Assembly (NCBI GenBank): GCA_026991225.1 | Contig: JALXCB010000149.1 | Coordinates: 1 to 42,003 of the forward strand | Origin: Anaerolineae bacterium | GTDB taxonomy: Bacteria; Chloroflexota; Anaerolineae; J102 | Length of the DNA stretch: 42,003 nt | Direction of reading: 5' to 3' | Shown here: piece after piece, positions 33,975-42,003 of the stretch | How the letters are laid out: each line of letters opens with the position of its first letter | Position numbering within the stretch: the stretch's first letter is position 1 | Program-made: the position numbers and the translations under genes | Notes under the pieces: generated by a model | Databases searched by the model: none | What the model was told of the DNA's origin: nothing | Seen by the model: only the letters and a program-made list of their open reading frames with translations

Positions 33975-34014
33975 AACCATCGACTATTTCATGACTCGCC
34001 ATGCGTTTATTTCT

Positions 34015-34899
34015 ATGGAGACGGTCTTTTTGAAATCATTCCAATACATTCGGCCGGAGAGCCTGGAAGAGGCTGGACGCTTTCTTGCGGGCGATGCTCC
34101 GGTAAAGCTATTAGGCGGCGGCAACACGCTGTTGTTGCGCATCCAATCGGGCGAGGAGGAGCCCGCCATTTTGCTGGATGTCAAGCATCTGCCCGGATTC
34201 AAGGACGTGCGCTATCATCACAATCAGGGCCTGAAGTTGGGAGCCGCCGTCAATTTGCAGCATCTTGTCATGGGGTTGGAAATCCGCCGCCATTACGCCT
34301 TGTTGCACCAGACCGCGCAGAAGCTGGCCTCGCCTCAGGTGCGCAATCGGGCCACCATCGGCGGGACCCTGGCCTGGGCCTCGCCCGTGTCGGAGCTGGC
34401 CGCGCCCATGCTCTGTTACGACGCCGTCTGTCATGTGTGGAGCTCGCGCGGGCTTCGGGAGATCCCTTTGTCCGAGTTCTATTTGGGGGATTTTCAGACG
34501 GCGCTGGCGGGGGATGAGATCATCACCCACGTGCATCTGCCTGCCTTCCCCAACCGCACCTATGGCGTCTATCGTCGGCAGACGGTGCGGCATGACGGGC
34601 GCAGGATGATCGCGGCCGCGGCCGTGCTGGCCTATCGCAGGCAACAGGCTCTGACTCACTGGCGCATTGCCGTGCTGGGCGTGGATGATCGCCCCAAACG
34701 CATTCCCGAGGCCGAGGCGGCGCTGGAAGGCGCGCCCACGGAGGAGGAGGTAGACCGGGCGTTGCATATCGTTCAGGAGCAAATCCATCCGGTGGACGCC
34801 GATTACGCCCGGGCCGACTATCGCCGCGCCTCCCTCAACGTCCTGCTGCGGCAGGCTATCCTCGACGTGATTCAACAATTACAGAGTATGCGCTCATGA
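34015..34899 (+). CDS. Molybdenum hydroxylase FAD-binding subunit (xanthine dehydrogenase subunit M family)
   Basis: About 294 residues. SFQYIRPESLEEAGRFL opens the FAD domain, followed by the FAD-binding loop KLLGGGNTLL and the second loop RNRATIGGTLAWASPVSE (usual form RNxATIGGNLxxxxPxxD). The C-terminal CO-dehydrogenase flavoprotein-like domain ends in ADYRRASLNVLLRQAI. The subunit takes electrons from the 2Fe-2S subunit and passes them to NAD or another acceptor. The start is uncertain: ATG 34015 is chosen, ATG 33991 is possible, and a TTG at 34030 with GGAG 9 nt upstream would give the typical MKSFQY start. The stop overlaps the next ATG by 4 bp, so subunits M, S and L are co-translated in that order. 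Confidence 0.88.
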   Translation: METVFLKSFQYIRPESLEEAGRFLAGDAPVKLLGGGNTLLLRIQSGEEEPAILLDVKHLPGFKDVRYHHNQGLKLGAAVNLQHLVMGLEIRRHYALLHQTAQKLASPQVRNRATIGGTLAWASPVSELAAPMLCYDAVCHVWSSRGLREIPLSEFYLGDFQTALAGDEIITHVHLPAFPNRTYGVYRRQTVRHDGRRMIAAAAVLAYRRQQALTHWRIAVLGVDDRPKRIPEAEAALEGAPTEEEVDRALHIVQEQIHPVDADYARADYRRASLNVLLRQAILDVIQQLQSMRS

Positions 34900-35363
34900 A
34901 ACATGACATTACCTTCACCATCAACGGTGAATCCGTTCATTTGACCGTGCTTTCCCATCAGACCCTGTTGGAGGTCATTCGCAATGATTTGGGGTTGACG
35001 GGGCCGAAATATGGCTGTTCCACCGGCGAGTGCGGCGCGTGCAGCGTCCTCCTGGATGGCGAGGTCGTCAATTCGTGTCTGGTGCTGGCCCCTGAGGCGG
35101 ATGGAGCCGAGATCATGACCGTGGAGGGGCTGTCCGAGGACGACGAACTCCATCCCCTGCAGAAGTCCTTCATCGATCACCATGGCGTGCAGTGCGGCTA
35201 TTGTGCGCCGGGCATGCTCATCTCGGCCAAGGCGCTGTTGAGTCGCACCTCCCGTCCCCATGAAGAGGAGATCCGGGAGGCGCTGGTGGGGAATCTGTGT
35301 CGATGCGGCGCGTATGCCGACATCATCAAATCCATCCAGGTCGCCTCCAGGGCCCGACGCTAG
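34896..35363 (+). CDS. Molybdenum hydroxylase 2Fe-2S subunit
   Basis: 155 residues. The plant-ferredoxin-type cluster is bound by Cys41, Cys46, Cys49 and Cys61 (GCSTGECGACSVLLDGEVVNSC). The second, all-helical domain binds a cluster through Cys100, Cys103, Cys135 and Cys137 (VQCGYCAPGM and GNLCRCGAY). All eight ligands are present, so electron transfer from the Mo site to FAD looks intact. The ATG at 34896 overlaps the stop of the FAD subunit. The next gene starts 10 bp after its stop. Confidence 0.95.
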   Translation: MKHDITFTINGESVHLTVLSHQTLLEVIRNDLGLTGPKYGCSTGECGACSVLLDGEVVNSCLVLAPEADGAEIMTVEGLSEDDELHPLQKSFIDHHGVQCGYCAPGMLISAKALLSRTSRPHEEEIREALVGNLCRCGAYADIIKSIQVASRARR

Positions 35364-35373
35364 AGGTGCTGTC

Positions 35374-37695
35374 ATGGTCATGCGAAAAACCCACGTTATT
35401 GGCAAACCTTTTCCCCTGGTCGAAGCGCAGAAGAAGCTGACGGGCGTTAGTTGCTATGCGGGCGATGAGCGTTTCGGGCCCGAACTGCTGCACGCCCGCA
35501 TTCTGTTTAGCGAACGGGGCCACGCTCGCTTTCGCCTGAGGGGCGTCGAGGCCGCGCGCAAGCAGGAGGGCGTGGCCGCACTGCTCACCGGTCGGGATCT
35601 GCACACGCGGTTGGGCGCGGTCATCGAAGATCGGGAGCTGCTGGCCGTGGACGAGGTGAAGTATGCGGGACAGCCGCTGGCCGTGGTGGCGGCGGAGTCG
35701 ACCGAAGCGGCCATGCAGGCGCTGGCGATGATCCAGATCGAGTATGAGAGGCTGCCGGGCGTGTATGATATCGAGAGTGCGCTCGCTCCCAATGCGCCCC
35801 CGGTGCATCCCCATATGGCTTCCTATCGCGGCTTCGATCAGGTGCAGGCTGAACCGGAACGCAATCTCGCCCATCAGGTCGCGTTCCAGCGGGGAGATGT
35901 GGAGAAAGCGCTGGCCAGTGCGGCTTTCGTGCTGGATCACACCTACACCGCCGCGCCGCTGCAACATGCGCCCATGGAAACCCATGGCGGCGTGGCGCAA
36001 AGACAGGGGAAGGGTGGGCTGATCATGTGGATGCACACGCAAGCGCCCTTCCTGCAGCGGGAGGTCATCGCCCGGGCGCTGCACATGGATCCAAAGGACC
36101 TGCGCATCATCACCCAATGCGTGGGGGGCAGTTTCGGCAGCAAAGTGTTCGTCAGTGTGGAGGGACTGCTGGCGGCCATCGCCCGGGAGGTGGATAATCG
36201 CCCCGTGCGCCTTCATCTCACCCGCGAGGAAGAATTTCGGGCGGTGTTCATGACCCCAGCCATGCGGGCGCGGGTGACCATGGGCCTGGATGATCAGGGC
36301 CACATCGTCGCCATCCGTGCCATCTATGATTGGAACGTGGGCGCGAGCGTGGACGCGTTTCTGATGGAAATGCAGCGCATCGCCCTGGCGGGCGCGGGAC
36401 CTTACGCCATCCCCAACGCAGACATTCAGGTGAACGCCATCTACACGCATCTCCTGCCAGCCGCGCCCATGCGGGGACTGAGCATTGCACAGGTGCATTG
36501 GGCGGTGGAACAGCATGTGGATGAGTTGGCCGAGATGGCGGGCGTCTCGCCGCTGGCCCTGCGTCAGCGCAACCTGGTGAAGGGCGGAGACCAGCTTTTC
36601 CCCAACTTCGTCATGCACGCCAACGGGCTGGAATCCTGCGTTCTGGAGACGGCCCGGGCCATCGATTGGCAGCCGGACCATCAGCGAGAGGCGTCGGGCG
36701 CTGTCGCCTCGGGCAAGGGCCTGGCCATGGGCTGGAGTCCCATTCTCGTCTCTCCGCATTGCAAGAGCCGGGCCATCATTCAGTGCGATGGCGAGAATCT
36801 GTGCACGGTTATCGTGGACGGGGTCGATGTGGGACAGGGCTATTACGCGTTTATTACCCAGCTCATCTCGTTCGAGTTGAATTTTCCCATCGAATGGATC
36901 ACGGTGCAGCCCACGGACACGGGGAATTATGACTCTGACTGGCGCGCCATCTACAACAATCTGCTGTGGAGCACAGGCCGGGCGTTGTTACAGGCCACGG
37001 CCGAGCTGAAACGCCAGATCCTCTCGTACGTGTCGGAGATGTGGGAGGAGCCGATGACGAATCTGGACATCGTGGAGGGCGAGGTCATCTCGTACGCGAC
37101 GAAACGTCGCCTCTCGGTGCTGACGTTGCTGCAGGAAGGAACGGGGGAGGGCGCGCCGCCCGTGTTCCGGGCCGCGGGCGTCTACGAACCCGAGGTCAAA
37201 GCCGAGAGTCTGGATGGCGCGTTGCAGTCCTTCGCCACAACAGGCTACGCCGCGGAGGTGGCGGTGAATCTGGAAACCGGCGATCTAACGGTGCTGCAGC
37301 TGGCCGGGGCCGCGGATGTGGGACACGCCATCAATCCCGAAGGCGTCAAGGCCCAATTGAAGGGCGGCATCATCCAGGGCGTCAGTCAGACCTTGCTGGA
37401 GGAGATGCGGTTCAAGGATGGCGCGCCTGTGACCATCGACTTTATGAGCTATCCCATCGCCACCACCGCGGATATGCCCCAGCAGATTCATCCCATCGTG
37501 GTAGAAATTCCCCAATCCACCGGCCCGTATGGCGCTCGCGACCTCTCCAATCATGTGCTGGTGGGCGCGTCCGCGGCCATTGGCAACGCGGTCTATCGGG
37601 CCACGGGCGTGCGCATTCGGGAACTGCCCATCACCCCCCAGCGCATCTACGATGCATTGCAAACCCAGGCCAAAACGGTAGAAGGTAACTGCTAA
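35374..37695 (+). CDS. Molybdopterin-binding subunit of a xanthine dehydrogenase-family hydroxylase
   Basis: 773 residues from ATG 35374 (GAGG about 8 nt upstream); the longer frame from 35260 overlaps the 2Fe-2S gene and is rejected. The N-terminal domain contains ARILFSERGHARFRLRGV and DEVKYAGQPLAVVAAES. The Mo-pterin loop is QCVGGSFGSKVF, close to the usual GGGFGGK. The segment PMRGLSIAQVHWAVEQHVDELA corresponds to the family's RGFG-type active-site loop. It lacks the AYRCSFR motif of form I CO dehydrogenases, so CO oxidation is not supported. The position of the catalytic Glu (usual GVGEP or GMSEH) reads GARDLSNHVLV, giving Asn726. Substrate unknown; altered chemistry or loss of hydroxylase activity is possible. 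The last three codons before the stop were altered by a mobile element at 37685. Confidence 0.9.
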   Translation: MVMRKTHVIGKPFPLVEAQKKLTGVSCYAGDERFGPELLHARILFSERGHARFRLRGVEAARKQEGVAALLTGRDLHTRLGAVIEDRELLAVDEVKYAGQPLAVVAAESTEAAMQALAMIQIEYERLPGVYDIESALAPNAPPVHPHMASYRGFDQVQAEPERNLAHQVAFQRGDVEKALASAAFVLDHTYTAAPLQHAPMETHGGVAQRQGKGGLIMWMHTQAPFLQREVIARALHMDPKDLRIITQCVGGSFGSKVFVSVEGLLAAIAREVDNRPVRLHLTREEEFRAVFMTPAMRARVTMGLDDQGHIVAIRAIYDWNVGASVDAFLMEMQRIALAGAGPYAIPNADIQVNAIYTHLLPAAPMRGLSIAQVHWAVEQHVDELAEMAGVSPLALRQRNLVKGGDQLFPNFVMHANGLESCVLETARAIDWQPDHQREASGAVASGKGLAMGWSPILVSPHCKSRAIIQCDGENLCTVIVDGVDVGQGYYAFITQLISFELNFPIEWITVQPTDTGNYDSDWRAIYNNLLWSTGRALLQATAELKRQILSYVSEMWEEPMTNLDIVEGEVISYATKRRLSVLTLLQEGTGEGAPPVFRAAGVYEPEVKAESLDGALQSFATTGYAAEVAVNLETGDLTVLQLAGAADVGHAINPEGVKAQLKGGIIQGVSQTLLEEMRFKDGAPVTIDFMSYPIATTADMPQQIHPIVVEIPQSTGPYGARDLSNHVLVGASAAIGNAVYRATGVRIRELPITPQRIYDALQTQAKTVEGNC

Positions 37696-37859: not shown

Positions 37860-38315
37860 CTACGGTTCAGTGGTTTCTGTCGCGGACTGGGCCGCCCGAT
37901 AAACTTCGGCCAGGGGGACGTCGTGGACGCGGGCCGCGGCCAGGCAGTCCTCGAACTCGGGCGCGGCCTTCCAGCGGCCCGGCGCGTACTCGGCCAGCTT
38001 GACGCGGATAGGTCCAAAAGGGGTGGCGACGGTCTCGACGCGACGGGGGAGGCTGTATCGCTGCACTTCCTGCTGGCGGACGCCCAGGGTGGTGGTGTGG
38101 GCGAAGATCAGCGCCCGCAGTTCGGGCGCTCGTTCGGGCGGGCAGAGGACGCTGAGCTGGGCCGCGGGCCGGTTCTTCTTCATCTGGATGGGCGTGAACC
38201 ACGCATCCAACGCCCCGGCCGCCAGCAGTTGCTCCAGCAGCGGGCCAAGCCACTCCGCGGGCATGTCGTCCAGGTTCGTTTCCAGGAGGATGAGGGTTTC
38301 GCGCTGTTCGGGCAT
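37860..38315 (-). CDS. Stand-alone LarC C-terminal domain (nickel-pincer cofactor nickel insertion family)
   Basis: 151 residues. It matches the C-terminal (LarC2) half of LarC/DUF111: LLETNLDDMPAEWLGPLLEQ, LLAAGALDAWFTPIQMKKNR, LSVLCPPERAPELRALIF, TTTLGVRQQEVQRYSLPR and FGPIRVKLAEY. Full LarC is about 400 residues, sometimes made from larC1 and larC2 by frameshifting. This half is known to bind CTP in LarC, which cyclometallates the pyridinium cofactor with nickel for lactate racemase. No N-terminal LarC1 sequence is present in any frame in the upstream 200 bp, and no larA, larB or larE is in the window. It may work with a separate LarC1 elsewhere, or have a different role. It converges with the Mo-subunit gene; before the element inserted, the stops were about 7 bp apart. 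No strong ribosome-binding site at ATG 38315. Confidence 0.8.
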   Translation of the reverse strand: MPEQRETLILLETNLDDMPAEWLGPLLEQLLAAGALDAWFTPIQMKKNRPAAQLSVLCPPERAPELRALIFAHTTTLGVRQQEVQRYSLPRRVETVATPFGPIRVKLAEYAPGRWKAAPEFEDCLAAARVHDVPLAEVYRAAQSATETTEP

Positions 38316-38526: not shown

Positions 38527-41136
38527 TTACCAGTTCTTGCGGAAGATCACCGAGAAGGAGTTGTGGAACAAGGTGTTCCCGCCGCCGCCATCGGGGCAAT
38601 TGGCCTCGTCGGTGAAGGCGGAATCCAGCGCCTGGGTGATGTCGGTGCTGGCCGGGGTCACGCCATCTTCGGAAATGTAGACCACATATTGGGCATGTTT
38701 GAACATGTCGAAGGTGACGCGCCCGTCCTCAGGATTCATGAGCCAGTAATCCTTCTGCTCGGTGCGCTTCTTGGCCAGAATCTGGCCCAGATTGCCCGCC
38801 ACGGCCTGGATGACCCAGACGCCATTGACGCCGTTGCCGTTGGCGTCCACAACCTTGACGTAGATGTTGTGCTTGCCGCGGTTCTCACAAGGGCTCAGAC
38901 GCCGCACCTCAAGCAGGGTGTATTGCTTGGCAGGCTTGGGGGTGGGCGTGGGCTGAGCCGGAGCCGCCGCGGCGGCCGCTCGCACGACAGGCCGCGGGGT
39001 GGGTGTAGGCGGCAGGGGCGTATTCGTGGGCGTGGCCGTGGGCGTACTGGTGGGCGTCGCCGTGGGCGTGTGCGTCGGCGTGGGGGTGATGGTGGGCGTG
39101 TTGGTGGGAACCGGCGTGTCGGTGGGGAGGGGCGTGTAGGTGGCCGTGGGCATGGGCGTGTGCGTCGCCTCGCGCTTGGCCAGAGCCATGGCCACAGGCT
39201 GCATCACGTCTTCCGCAGCCACTGCAACCACAGGAACACCGTCCTGGCCAACGGGCGTCTTGGAGCCCTTCGCCTTCAGCGCGTTGGCGACGGTAAAGGG
39301 CGCCGACACGCCAATGAGTAGCGCCAGCAACAAGATGAGCAGGGCCAGACGCCATTTGGCTCCCCGGGAGAGGCCGCCAAACCACAACGCCAGGGAGTCG
39401 AACATGCCCGGCTTGGCGGGCTTCTGCGGCTGGATGGTGGCGACGGGCGCGGGGGCCGCGGGCTGCATAACCCGAGTGGGGGCCGCCGCGGGGACGGGTG
39501 CAGGAACCGGCGCAGGCTGGACGCCCGAGGCTTTCTGCTCGGCCAGCCGATGCAGCTTGCGGCTGAGCTCCCGGCTCATGTTCAACCCCACGATGGGGTA
39601 TTTGAGGATGAGCGCTTCCAGCTCCTCCCGGGTCAGCTCCCAGAATTCGCCGTCAGTTTTGGCGAAGGCGGTGTCGAGATGGGGCTCGCCGGAGAGGATG
39701 GCGGCCTCGCCGAAGAAATCGCCGTCGCGTAGGGTGAGGGTTCCCTCAGGCCCGCGCAGCTCGACCACGCCTTTCTCGATGATGTGCACTCGGTTGGCGG
39801 GAGCGCCTGCCTTGTAGATGATGTCGCCAGCCCGATAGCGGGCGGGCAACAGGCGTTCCGCCACATCTTCCAACTGTTCCACGCTGAGGCCGCTGAACAG
39901 GGCGATCAGACGCAAATGCTTTTCCACAAATGCGTGCCCCGCCGCGCCCAGGCGATCTTGCAGCACCTCGCTGAGGGCTTTGCCGATGACCGGATAGGCG
40001 CTAACCAACTCCTCGAAGTCAGAGCGGTAAAGGGCCCACAGCACCGTATTCTCCGCCGCCCGAGCGCCCGTGGATCGGGGCTTGCCCGTCAACAGGGCCA
40101 TCTCGCCGAAGAAGCCGCCCGCGTTGATGCGGGCCAGGATCTGGCCCTTGCGGCTGACGCTGCCCACGATCTCGACCCGGCCCTTGTCCACCAGGTAGAG
40201 GGCGTCGCCGACGTCCCCCTCCTTGTAGATGATATCGCCTGCGGCGATGGGGCGGACGACGAGCCGTTGGGTGACGGCGCGCAGGGTAGCGTCATCCAGG
40301 TTGGCGAAGAGGGGCAGCGCCCGCAGCCGTTCGATGGCCAGCTCTTCATCGCTGACGGGCAGGGGCGTATGCAGGCCCGCGCTGAGGTGCGGCACGAATT
40401 CGGGCCGTTCGGCGGCGATAGTCTCGAACGCCTCCCGGTTCAACTTCCACAGGGCGGCATCGGTCTCCGCGACCGCGGTGGCGTCGTAGGGCTTGTTGGC
40501 CAGCGTTGCGGCCAACCCGAAAATATCGCCAGCCTTCAGGATGCGGTCGCCCGCATCGGAACGCACCCGAACCTCGCCATTCTCCAGGATGAAGAAGCCA
40601 TCGTTCGCCTCTCCCGCCTGAAAGATGGTCCGCCCCGCCTCGAAATCCTGGAGCTCCAGGTGGGCGGCCAGTTCCTGCAATTCCTCATCGGTCAGGCCCT
40701 GCAGTGCCTCGGCCGGGCGCAAGCGATTGTGGATCAGGTGCTTTTCCACCTGAATGATGCGCGAGCCGAAGTTGCGCGAGAGCTTGAGCCCGATGGCGGG
40801 GTGGTCCTGGATGATCTGTGCCAGGTCCTCGCTGGTCAACGCCCAGGCGTCGGTGCCAATGGTGGCTTCAGCGGAAACAGCGCGTCGGCGTCCCAAGAAG
40901 ACGCCCGATTCGCCGAAGGTGGCGCCTGCGCCCAGGGTGGCCAGAGACACCGGCCCCACGCTGAGACGCACGCCGCCATGCTCGATCAGATAGAAGGCGG
41001 TGCTGGCATCGTCCTCGGCATAGATCAGCTCATGCGCGGCGAAATGCTGCAAGCGCATGCGCTGGACGATGACCGCCCGCTCTTCCTTCGTCAAGCCGGC
41101 GAAAAGCGTAGCGCGTTTCACGAAATCAGATATCAC
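38527..41136 (-). CDS. Membrane protein with four cyclic-nucleotide-binding domains and a secreted C-terminal domain
   Basis: 869 residues. Four CNBDs follow each other: about 8-130, 145-250, 270-395 and 408-525. The phosphate-binding cassette (FGE...R.A) is complete in domain 3 (FGEMALLTGKPRSTGARA, Glu345 and Arg354) and probably in domain 1 (FGESGVFLGRRRAVSA, Glu76). Domain 2 lacks both residues (FGLAATLANKPYDATA). Domain 4 has Glu477 but no Arg. A Pro/Ala linker leads to one TM helix (about 596-612), then a Thr-Pro linker (about 657-736) and a C-terminal domain (739-869) with VKVVDANGNGVNGVWV, an Ig-like motif. The CNBDs should be cytoplasmic and the tail external. A receptor or gating role is inference. 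Start GTG at 41136 has AGGAGG 12 nt upstream. The neighbour at 41519 carries a paralogous tail. Confidence 0.87.
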   Translation of the reverse strand: MISDFVKRATLFAGLTKEERAVIVQRMRLQHFAAHELIYAEDDASTAFYLIEHGGVRLSVGPVSLATLGAGATFGESGVFLGRRRAVSAEATIGTDAWALTSEDLAQIIQDHPAIGLKLSRNFGSRIIQVEKHLIHNRLRPAEALQGLTDEELQELAAHLELQDFEAGRTIFQAGEANDGFFILENGEVRVRSDAGDRILKAGDIFGLAATLANKPYDATAVAETDAALWKLNREAFETIAAERPEFVPHLSAGLHTPLPVSDEELAIERLRALPLFANLDDATLRAVTQRLVVRPIAAGDIIYKEGDVGDALYLVDKGRVEIVGSVSRKGQILARINAGGFFGEMALLTGKPRSTGARAAENTVLWALYRSDFEELVSAYPVIGKALSEVLQDRLGAAGHAFVEKHLRLIALFSGLSVEQLEDVAERLLPARYRAGDIIYKAGAPANRVHIIEKGVVELRGPEGTLTLRDGDFFGEAAILSGEPHLDTAFAKTDGEFWELTREELEALILKYPIVGLNMSRELSRKLHRLAEQKASGVQPAPVPAPVPAAAPTRVMQPAAPAPVATIQPQKPAKPGMFDSLALWFGGLSRGAKWRLALLILLLALLIGVSAPFTVANALKAKGSKTPVGQDGVPVVAVAAEDVMQPVAMALAKREATHTPMPTATYTPLPTDTPVPTNTPTITPTPTHTPTATPTSTPTATPTNTPLPPTPTPRPVVRAAAAAAPAQPTPTPKPAKQYTLLEVRRLSPCENRGKHNIYVKVVDANGNGVNGVWVIQAVAGNLGQILAKKRTEQKDYWLMNPEDGRVTFDMFKHAQYVVYISEDGVTPASTDITQALDSAFTDEANCPDGGGGNTLFHNSFSVIFRKNW

Positions 41137-41518: not shown

Positions 41519-42003
41519 TCAATAGGTGCGCTGGAAGGTGACATCCCAGGAGTAATGGCCGTGACAGGCGTTGGCGTCGCGCAGCGCCTGGCAACTGGCC
41601 GCGTCGTGGCAATAACCCGCGGCGATGAAAGCCTCATCCGAGATGCGGTGCGGGTCGGTGACCATGCCCTCGGCGGTCTCGCTGACCACCTGACGCCCGT
41701 CCACGTCCCGGACCACGCGCAGACCGTCGCCATCGCCCAGAATCCACTCGGCCATGCCCGGGCCTTTGGAGCCGGTCACTTGCTCCACGCCGCTGTAAAT
41801 GCCCAGCACGGTGACGCCGTTCAGGGGCTGGCCGTTGGCGTCCAGGACGATGGCGCGCAACTGGCGCTTTTCGCCGCAGTGGAGGGAGGGGCCGTCGAAC
41901 CAACCGCCGTTCTCCTGCGGCCCCCACAGCCGCACGCTCTTGACCACAAAGTCCACCGGCGGCTTCGTGGGCGTGGGAGGGGGCGCGGGCGTGGGCGTGG
42001 GAG
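41519..42003 (-). CDS. 3' end of a gene for a secreted protein with a domain paralogous to the four-CNBD protein tail
   Basis: The frame is open to the window edge, so the 5' end is missing; the GTG at 41956 is internal. The visible part begins with a Thr-Pro linker (PTPTPAPPPTPTKPP) and continues as a 145-residue domain: VDFVVKSVRLWGPQENGGWF, HCGEKRQLRAIVLDANGQPL, NGVTVLGIYSG, and an end of HYSWDVTFQRTY. The order of motifs (VR.L, .ENGG, .LR..V.DANG.P.NGV.V, final aromatic strand) parallels the tail of the four-CNBD protein (EVRRLSPCENRGKHNIYVKV, DANGNGVNGV, FHNSFSVIFRKNW). Four cysteines are present. The unseen N-terminal part could also carry CNBDs and a TM helix, but this cannot be seen. 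No terminator is evident downstream. Confidence 0.75.
   Translation of the reverse strand, partial: PTPTPAPPPTPTKPPVDFVVKSVRLWGPQENGGWFDGPSLHCGEKRQLRAIVLDANGQPLNGVTVLGIYSGVEQVTGSKGPGMAEWILGDGDGLRVVRDVDGRQVVSETAEGMVTDPHRISDEAFIAAGYCHDAASCQALRDANACHGHYSWDVTFQRTY

Follow-up and report, generated by a model that had tools for sequence, protein, structure and literature searches.

The cyclic-nucleotide-binding domains (CNBDs) of bacteria normally deliver their signal to a transcription factor, a channel or an enzyme. Which output can then be expected from a protein in which four CNBDs in series are followed by a membrane helix, a linker and a C-terminal beta-sandwich head? This question is raised by an 869-aa protein encoded near one end of the window, that is, the whole stretch of 42,003 nucleotides that was analysed (Table 1). 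The open reading frame starts with a GTG codon and has exactly the extent that had been given for it from the sequence alone. The same original prediction had described four tandem CNBDs, one membrane helix, a long Thr-Pro linker and no catalytic or DNA-binding domain, and this description is borne out in all four respects. Indeed, the Pfam scan returns four matches to PF00027 (cNMP_binding, E 8e-77) above cut-off and no other domain above it, and no enzyme or DNA-binding domain is found by Pfam or NCBIfam. In an AlphaFold model of the full-length protein, built from 20 homologs, four CNBD folds (about aa 2-139, 141-252, 261-408 and 410-536; pLDDT mostly 80-95) precede a disordered stretch (aa 538-577), a helix (591-622), a second disordered stretch (623-732) and a beta-sandwich (738-868). 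The predicted helix contains the only hydrophobic segment of the protein, aa 598-616, and is separated from the head by a linker of 113 residues predicted to be disordered.

Table 1. Positions in the window of the CNBD protein, its parts and the truncated upstream gene
Feature	Positions	Strand	Residues and remarks
869-aa protein (four CNBDs, TM helix, Thr-Pro linker, head)	38527..41136	-	ORF, Pfam, AlphaFold, homologs of like layout
CNBD1	40720..41136	-	aa 1-139; E76 and R85 present
CNBD2	40363..40719	-	aa 140-258; degenerate, L208/Y217
CNBD3	39922..40362	-	aa 259-405; E345 and R354 intact
CNBD4	39526..39921	-	aa 406-537; E477 present, Arg replaced by H486
Juxtamembrane stretch and TM helix	39271..39405	-	aa 578-622; hydrophobic core 598-616
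Disordered Thr-Pro-rich linker	38932..39270	-	aa 623-735; pLDDT mostly <50
Putative CnaB/transthyretin-like beta-sandwich head	38530..38931	-	aa 736-869
3' part of upstream partner gene	41519..42003	-	Thr-Pro linker and homologous head; cut by contig end

This layout is shared by a family of proteins. Matches at E <= 1e-30 were obtained in 34 of 61 genomes (the genome of origin and its relatives), including most of the genomes of its own family. Twenty homologs belonging to several families of the same class have in common the CNBDs, a single strong helix (aa 600-715), the Thr-Pro linker and the head; aligned, they keep this architecture at 32-88% identity, and the whole of it recurs in homologs as distant as 32-40%. 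In the membrane region, Pro613 is invariant among the homologs, and W585, K594, R596 and G609 are nearly so. A search by domain architecture had been proposed as a check; a scan of species genomes showed the layout in 55 further members, a set overlapping that of the 20 homologs. Almost all are labelled Anaerolineae, Caldilineales, Ardenticatenia or Chloroflexota (MAGs), and a small number of unexpected labels (Propionibacteriaceae, for example) probably reflect bins assigned to the wrong taxon. Lower-scoring matches in Calditrichota, Myxococcota and others were excluded, since with the full-length profile they fall short of 1e-60. The family must be regarded as patchy, since an even sample of the whole phylum contains members in only 3 of 151 genomes. 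No description of four CNBDs combined with a TM helix and a head was found in the open-access literature, nor any characterised family of this architecture. This conserved architecture, in a conserved envelope-type locus, is real and apparently undescribed. The genome of origin encodes another unusual tandem-CNBD membrane protein, on contig C64 (L019:2200-4632), whose 810 aa comprise three CNBDs, two bPH_2 (bacterial PH) domains and several TM helices.

The head was predicted alone, aligned with the homologous heads of a partner protein encoded next to it, and reaches a pLDDT of 88.6. Foldseek relates it to the sandwiches of CnaB, transthyretin and HIUase with E values of about 1e-3 to 1e-2, and VIA-align gives Z 7-9 over 80-90 residues against 8bdw, 3kpt and 2igl. 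With a sequence identity to these sandwiches of about 10-18%, the likeness is one of fold, and the model supports the assignment of a CnaB/transthyretin-like fold with moderate confidence. No Pfam family reaches its cut-off for the head. The label 'Ig-like' of the original prediction is acceptable as a loose term, but CnaB/transthyretin-like is to be preferred. This head has no match to Big_1 (bacterial Ig-like); the head of the partner scores 15.4 bits against Big_1, under the cut-off of 34.9. Elsewhere in the genome, on contig C112, a protein of 1024 aa (L018:5901-8972), matched four times by CarboxypepD_reg and also by SdrD_B, is followed by a 310-aa protein (L018:9175-10104), and both weakly match the sequence of the head.

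On which side of the membrane does the head lie? CNBDs are otherwise cytoplasmic domains. Among the 48 homologs with a helix, the mean number of lysines and arginines is 2.5 in the 15 residues preceding the helix versus 0.5 following it; the preceding count is the higher in 43 of them, and the reverse is seen in none. The copy under study is neutral, with three such residues on either side, and its orientation is therefore deduced from the family. An N-in/C-out topology is predicted on this basis, with the CNBDs inside and the head outside, as had been proposed for the C-terminal domain. The two cysteines present in the head of most members are weakly suggestive of the same location.

The capacity of each CNBD to bind a cyclic nucleotide can be appraised from the Glu and Arg of the phosphate-binding cassette, the pair expected in cAMP- or cGMP-binding CNBDs. 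Both residues occur in CNBD1 and CNBD3 of the present protein, and the original count of two intact and two degenerate domains is correct for this copy, but only CNBD3 is consistently intact in the family. The pair is present in CNBD3 of 53 of 56 sequences, in CNBD1 of 20 of 54 members, in CNBD4 of 19 of 53 and in CNBD2 of none of 54. The Glu of CNBD3 is found in 56/56, a count biased by one search pattern that contained this residue (FGE); the Arg count is free of this bias, as is the set of 20 homologs, found without the pattern, where the pair occurs in CNBD3 of 17 and in one or more CNBDs of every member. Among the four domains, CNBD3 also shows the highest conservation, with a median identity of 43% versus 32-37% for the others. 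The rule for the family, as read from these alignments, is one dependable site, CNBD3, whose pocket is predicted to be consistently competent for nucleotide binding. The Crp/Fnr-type proteins of the same genome that were inspected by eye, a part of its CNBD matches, do not possess the canonical pair.

A pocket of this kind raises the question of its ligand, and cyclases were searched for, as the original prediction had suggested. No class III cyclase (PF00211) is detected in the genome of origin, which is 97% complete, nor in genome G006 of the same genus, which is 100% complete; G005 is the one genome of the genus that has it. The class I cyclase (PF01295) is absent from all 21 genomes searched. 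A stand-alone CYTH protein is present; it gave no NCBIfam match at 1e-5 and was hence not counted as a class IV cyclase. A cNMP signal is therefore not demonstrated, most of the genus being devoid of detectable class III and class I cyclases. Among the aligned members from genomes lacking PF00211, 7/7 keep the Glu and Arg of CNBD3. Either the ligand would be made by an unrecognised source, or it would be imported, or the pocket would bind something else.

These observations bear on two other explanations. The CNBDs could be ligand-free rigid beads in a structural envelope scaffold linking membrane and wall. This would agree with the constant absence of the pair from CNBD2 and its frequent absence from CNBD1 and CNBD4, with the missing cyclases of some genomes and with the long stalk and the sandwich head, but the persistence of both residues in CNBD3, the occurrence of at least one complete site throughout the 20 homologs and the preservation of the CNBD3 pair in genomes without PF00211 render it rather improbable. 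The other explanation is the one first put forward, an inside-out control of surface display: cAMP or cGMP would bind, the helix would relay the signal and the head would change its display or its binding, in the manner of LapD for c-di-GMP. The intact CNBD3 pocket, the N-in/C-out topology and the invariant Pro613 and conserved Gly609 of the helix speak for such a receptor, and LapD offers a precedent for second-messenger signalling of this type (PMC5231407). A direct relay to the head is nevertheless implausible across a disordered linker of this length, the Pfam scan detects no HAMP-like relay, and the cyclases are lacking in most of the genus, so that this reading, as originally worded, is disfavoured and has to be considered unlikely.

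The surrounding genes provide a further line of evidence, which was invisible to the original prediction because the partner, tRNA and sigma genes lie mostly off the window. In locus L049 of a close relative, genes for a zf-HC2 anti-sigma factor and an ECF sigma factor are followed, divergently, by a tRNA-Leu(CAA) gene, the gene of a 418-aa partner and that of the CNBD protein; the zf-HC2 match narrowly misses the cut-off in L049 but clearly exceeds it in L058. The partner has a membrane anchor at its N terminus (lipobox-like in some members), then a helical stretch and an SH3b domain flanked on both sides by Thr-Pro linkers, and bears a head homologous to the one on the CNBD protein; the intact copy at L049:1992-3245 has SH3_3. 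In 40 of 46 loci the partner gene directly precedes the CNBD gene in the same orientation, with a gap mostly <250 b. Where the flank is sufficient, an ECF sigma gene is nearby in 26 of 36 loci and a zf-HC2 anti-sigma gene in 25 of 34; the pair is missing nearby in about a quarter of loci. From the approximately 10 ECF-like genes in the 3.9 Mb of the genome of origin, the chance of encountering one at <=4 kb on the right strand is roughly estimated at about 1%. In this genome, the remainder of the locus is found at the end of contig C19: a 5' part matching the truncated partner gene of the window (TM anchor, helical region and SH3b-like stretch) and, in the divergent half, an ECF gene that shares 92% identity with its L049 counterpart. 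On C19 the partner reading breaks off a little short of the Thr-Pro linker, and it is with this linker that the partner part of the window begins; we infer that contigs C19 and C149 abut. On the other side of the CNBD gene, close by, stands a molybdenum hydroxylase trio (FAD, 2Fe-2S and molybdopterin subunits; window 33991-37695, plus strand). Of a LarC-type nickel insertion protein, window 37860-38315 encodes no more than the C-terminal portion (PF01969 240-375); the N-terminal portion is on another contig, C38, and LarC seems therefore to be split into separate genes.

The gap between the ECF and partner genes bears a tRNA-Leu signature in 38 of 39 loci (for example L162:12426-12512), which ARAGORN confirmed in the loci tested, and Rfam reports only tRNAs in this region. 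A sigma-70 promoter of the tRNA-Leu (TTGAC-N18-TATA) is present in 32 loci. An initial motif-scan signal was rejected as a regulatory site, being due to the tRNA-Leu gene and its promoter. In 33 of 34 loci a minus-strand TATAAT is located 3' of the tRNA-Leu; it may represent the promoter of the ECF gene, in which case transcription would proceed antisense through the tRNA. Since no conserved ECF-type promoter was found before the partner gene across loci, the sigma factor need not control the partner-CNBD operon.

SH3b domains are often cell-wall binding. The conserved linkage to an ECF sigma factor and a membrane zf-HC2 anti-sigma factor, together with the SH3b domain of the partner, could thus point to signalling in the opposite direction: the head or the partner would sense the state of the envelope, and the CNBD rod would be a docking platform modulating the sigma/anti-sigma pair. 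The selective retention of Glu and Arg in CNBD3 would be unexplained if the CNBDs were mere platforms, however, some loci are without the sigma pair, and evidence for a contact with the anti-sigma factor is lacking; such an outside-in device is improbable.

The explanation that we prefer, while granting it slightly less than an even chance, is that the protein, encoded in an envelope locus of Chloroflexota and crossing the membrane once, acts as a nucleotide-responsive tether. The head would dock in the envelope, probably on the SH3b partner or next to it, and the docked head would keep the cytoplasmic CNBD rod close to the membrane. Binding of a nucleotide to CNBD3 (in some lineages also to CNBD1 or CNBD4) would alter the packing or the self-association of the rod, and the altered rod would cluster the heads or expose a surface on which a cytoplasmic protein could dock. 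Given the length and disorder of the stalk, the coupling would be expected to operate by clustering and avidity, without a push transmitted along the helix to the head, and a tether or scaffold that responds to a nucleotide is more probable than an inside-out allostery carried by the helix. The linked ECF sigma/anti-sigma pair is suggestive of a function in envelope homeostasis. A more far-reaching proposal, a Chloroflexota-specific trans-envelope nucleotide receptor that would couple one CNBD pocket both to an ECF sigma pathway and to a partner bound to the wall, in some lineages in response to a cyclic nucleotide from an unrecognised enzyme, is very unlikely. A conserved protein with four CNBDs inside and a head outside, whose gene has those of an SH3b partner and of an ECF/anti-sigma pair as neighbours, would connect nucleotide signalling with the envelope of Chloroflexota, about which little is known, and the intact CNBD3 of genomes without a recognised cyclase raises the concrete, testable question of what this domain binds.

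Several known systems share a part of this arrangement. Loci of ECF sigma factors with class I anti-sigma factors (PMC7406223) are comparable to the divergent ECF and membrane zf-HC2 anti-sigma genes adjoining the partner-CNBD operon; no linkage of a CNBD protein to such a locus was found in the open-access literature. Crp/Fnr regulators and the CNBD channels SthK and MloK1 have in common with the 869-aa protein the CNBD fold and its phosphate-binding cassette, but this protein has no channel pore and, in the Pfam scan, no C-terminal HTH of the Crp/Fnr type, its NCBIfam matches falling on the CNBD part, far below cut-off. By domain, the nearest multi-CNBD protein is the apicomplexan PKG, a soluble kinase with four CNBDs in series on one chain (PMC6628679), which provides the best Foldseek matches (PDB 5dzc and 5dyk) and is among the best profile matches. 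The serial CNBDs are shared, whereas the kinase domain expected of a PKG/PKA-R protein is absent from the Pfam scan and a TM helix and an outside head are added; the low global TM-score to PKG (0.2) indicates that the domains match and that their arrangement does not. The nearest functional analogy is LapD, an inside-out c-di-GMP receptor (PMC5231407), in which a cytosolic second-messenger-binding fold is likewise linked across the membrane to an extracytoplasmic domain. LapD achieves this with EAL/GGDEF domains, a HAMP relay and a structured periplasmic domain, of which the Pfam scan finds neither HAMP nor EAL/GGDEF in the 869-aa protein, where CNBDs, one helix and a long disordered linker stand in their place.
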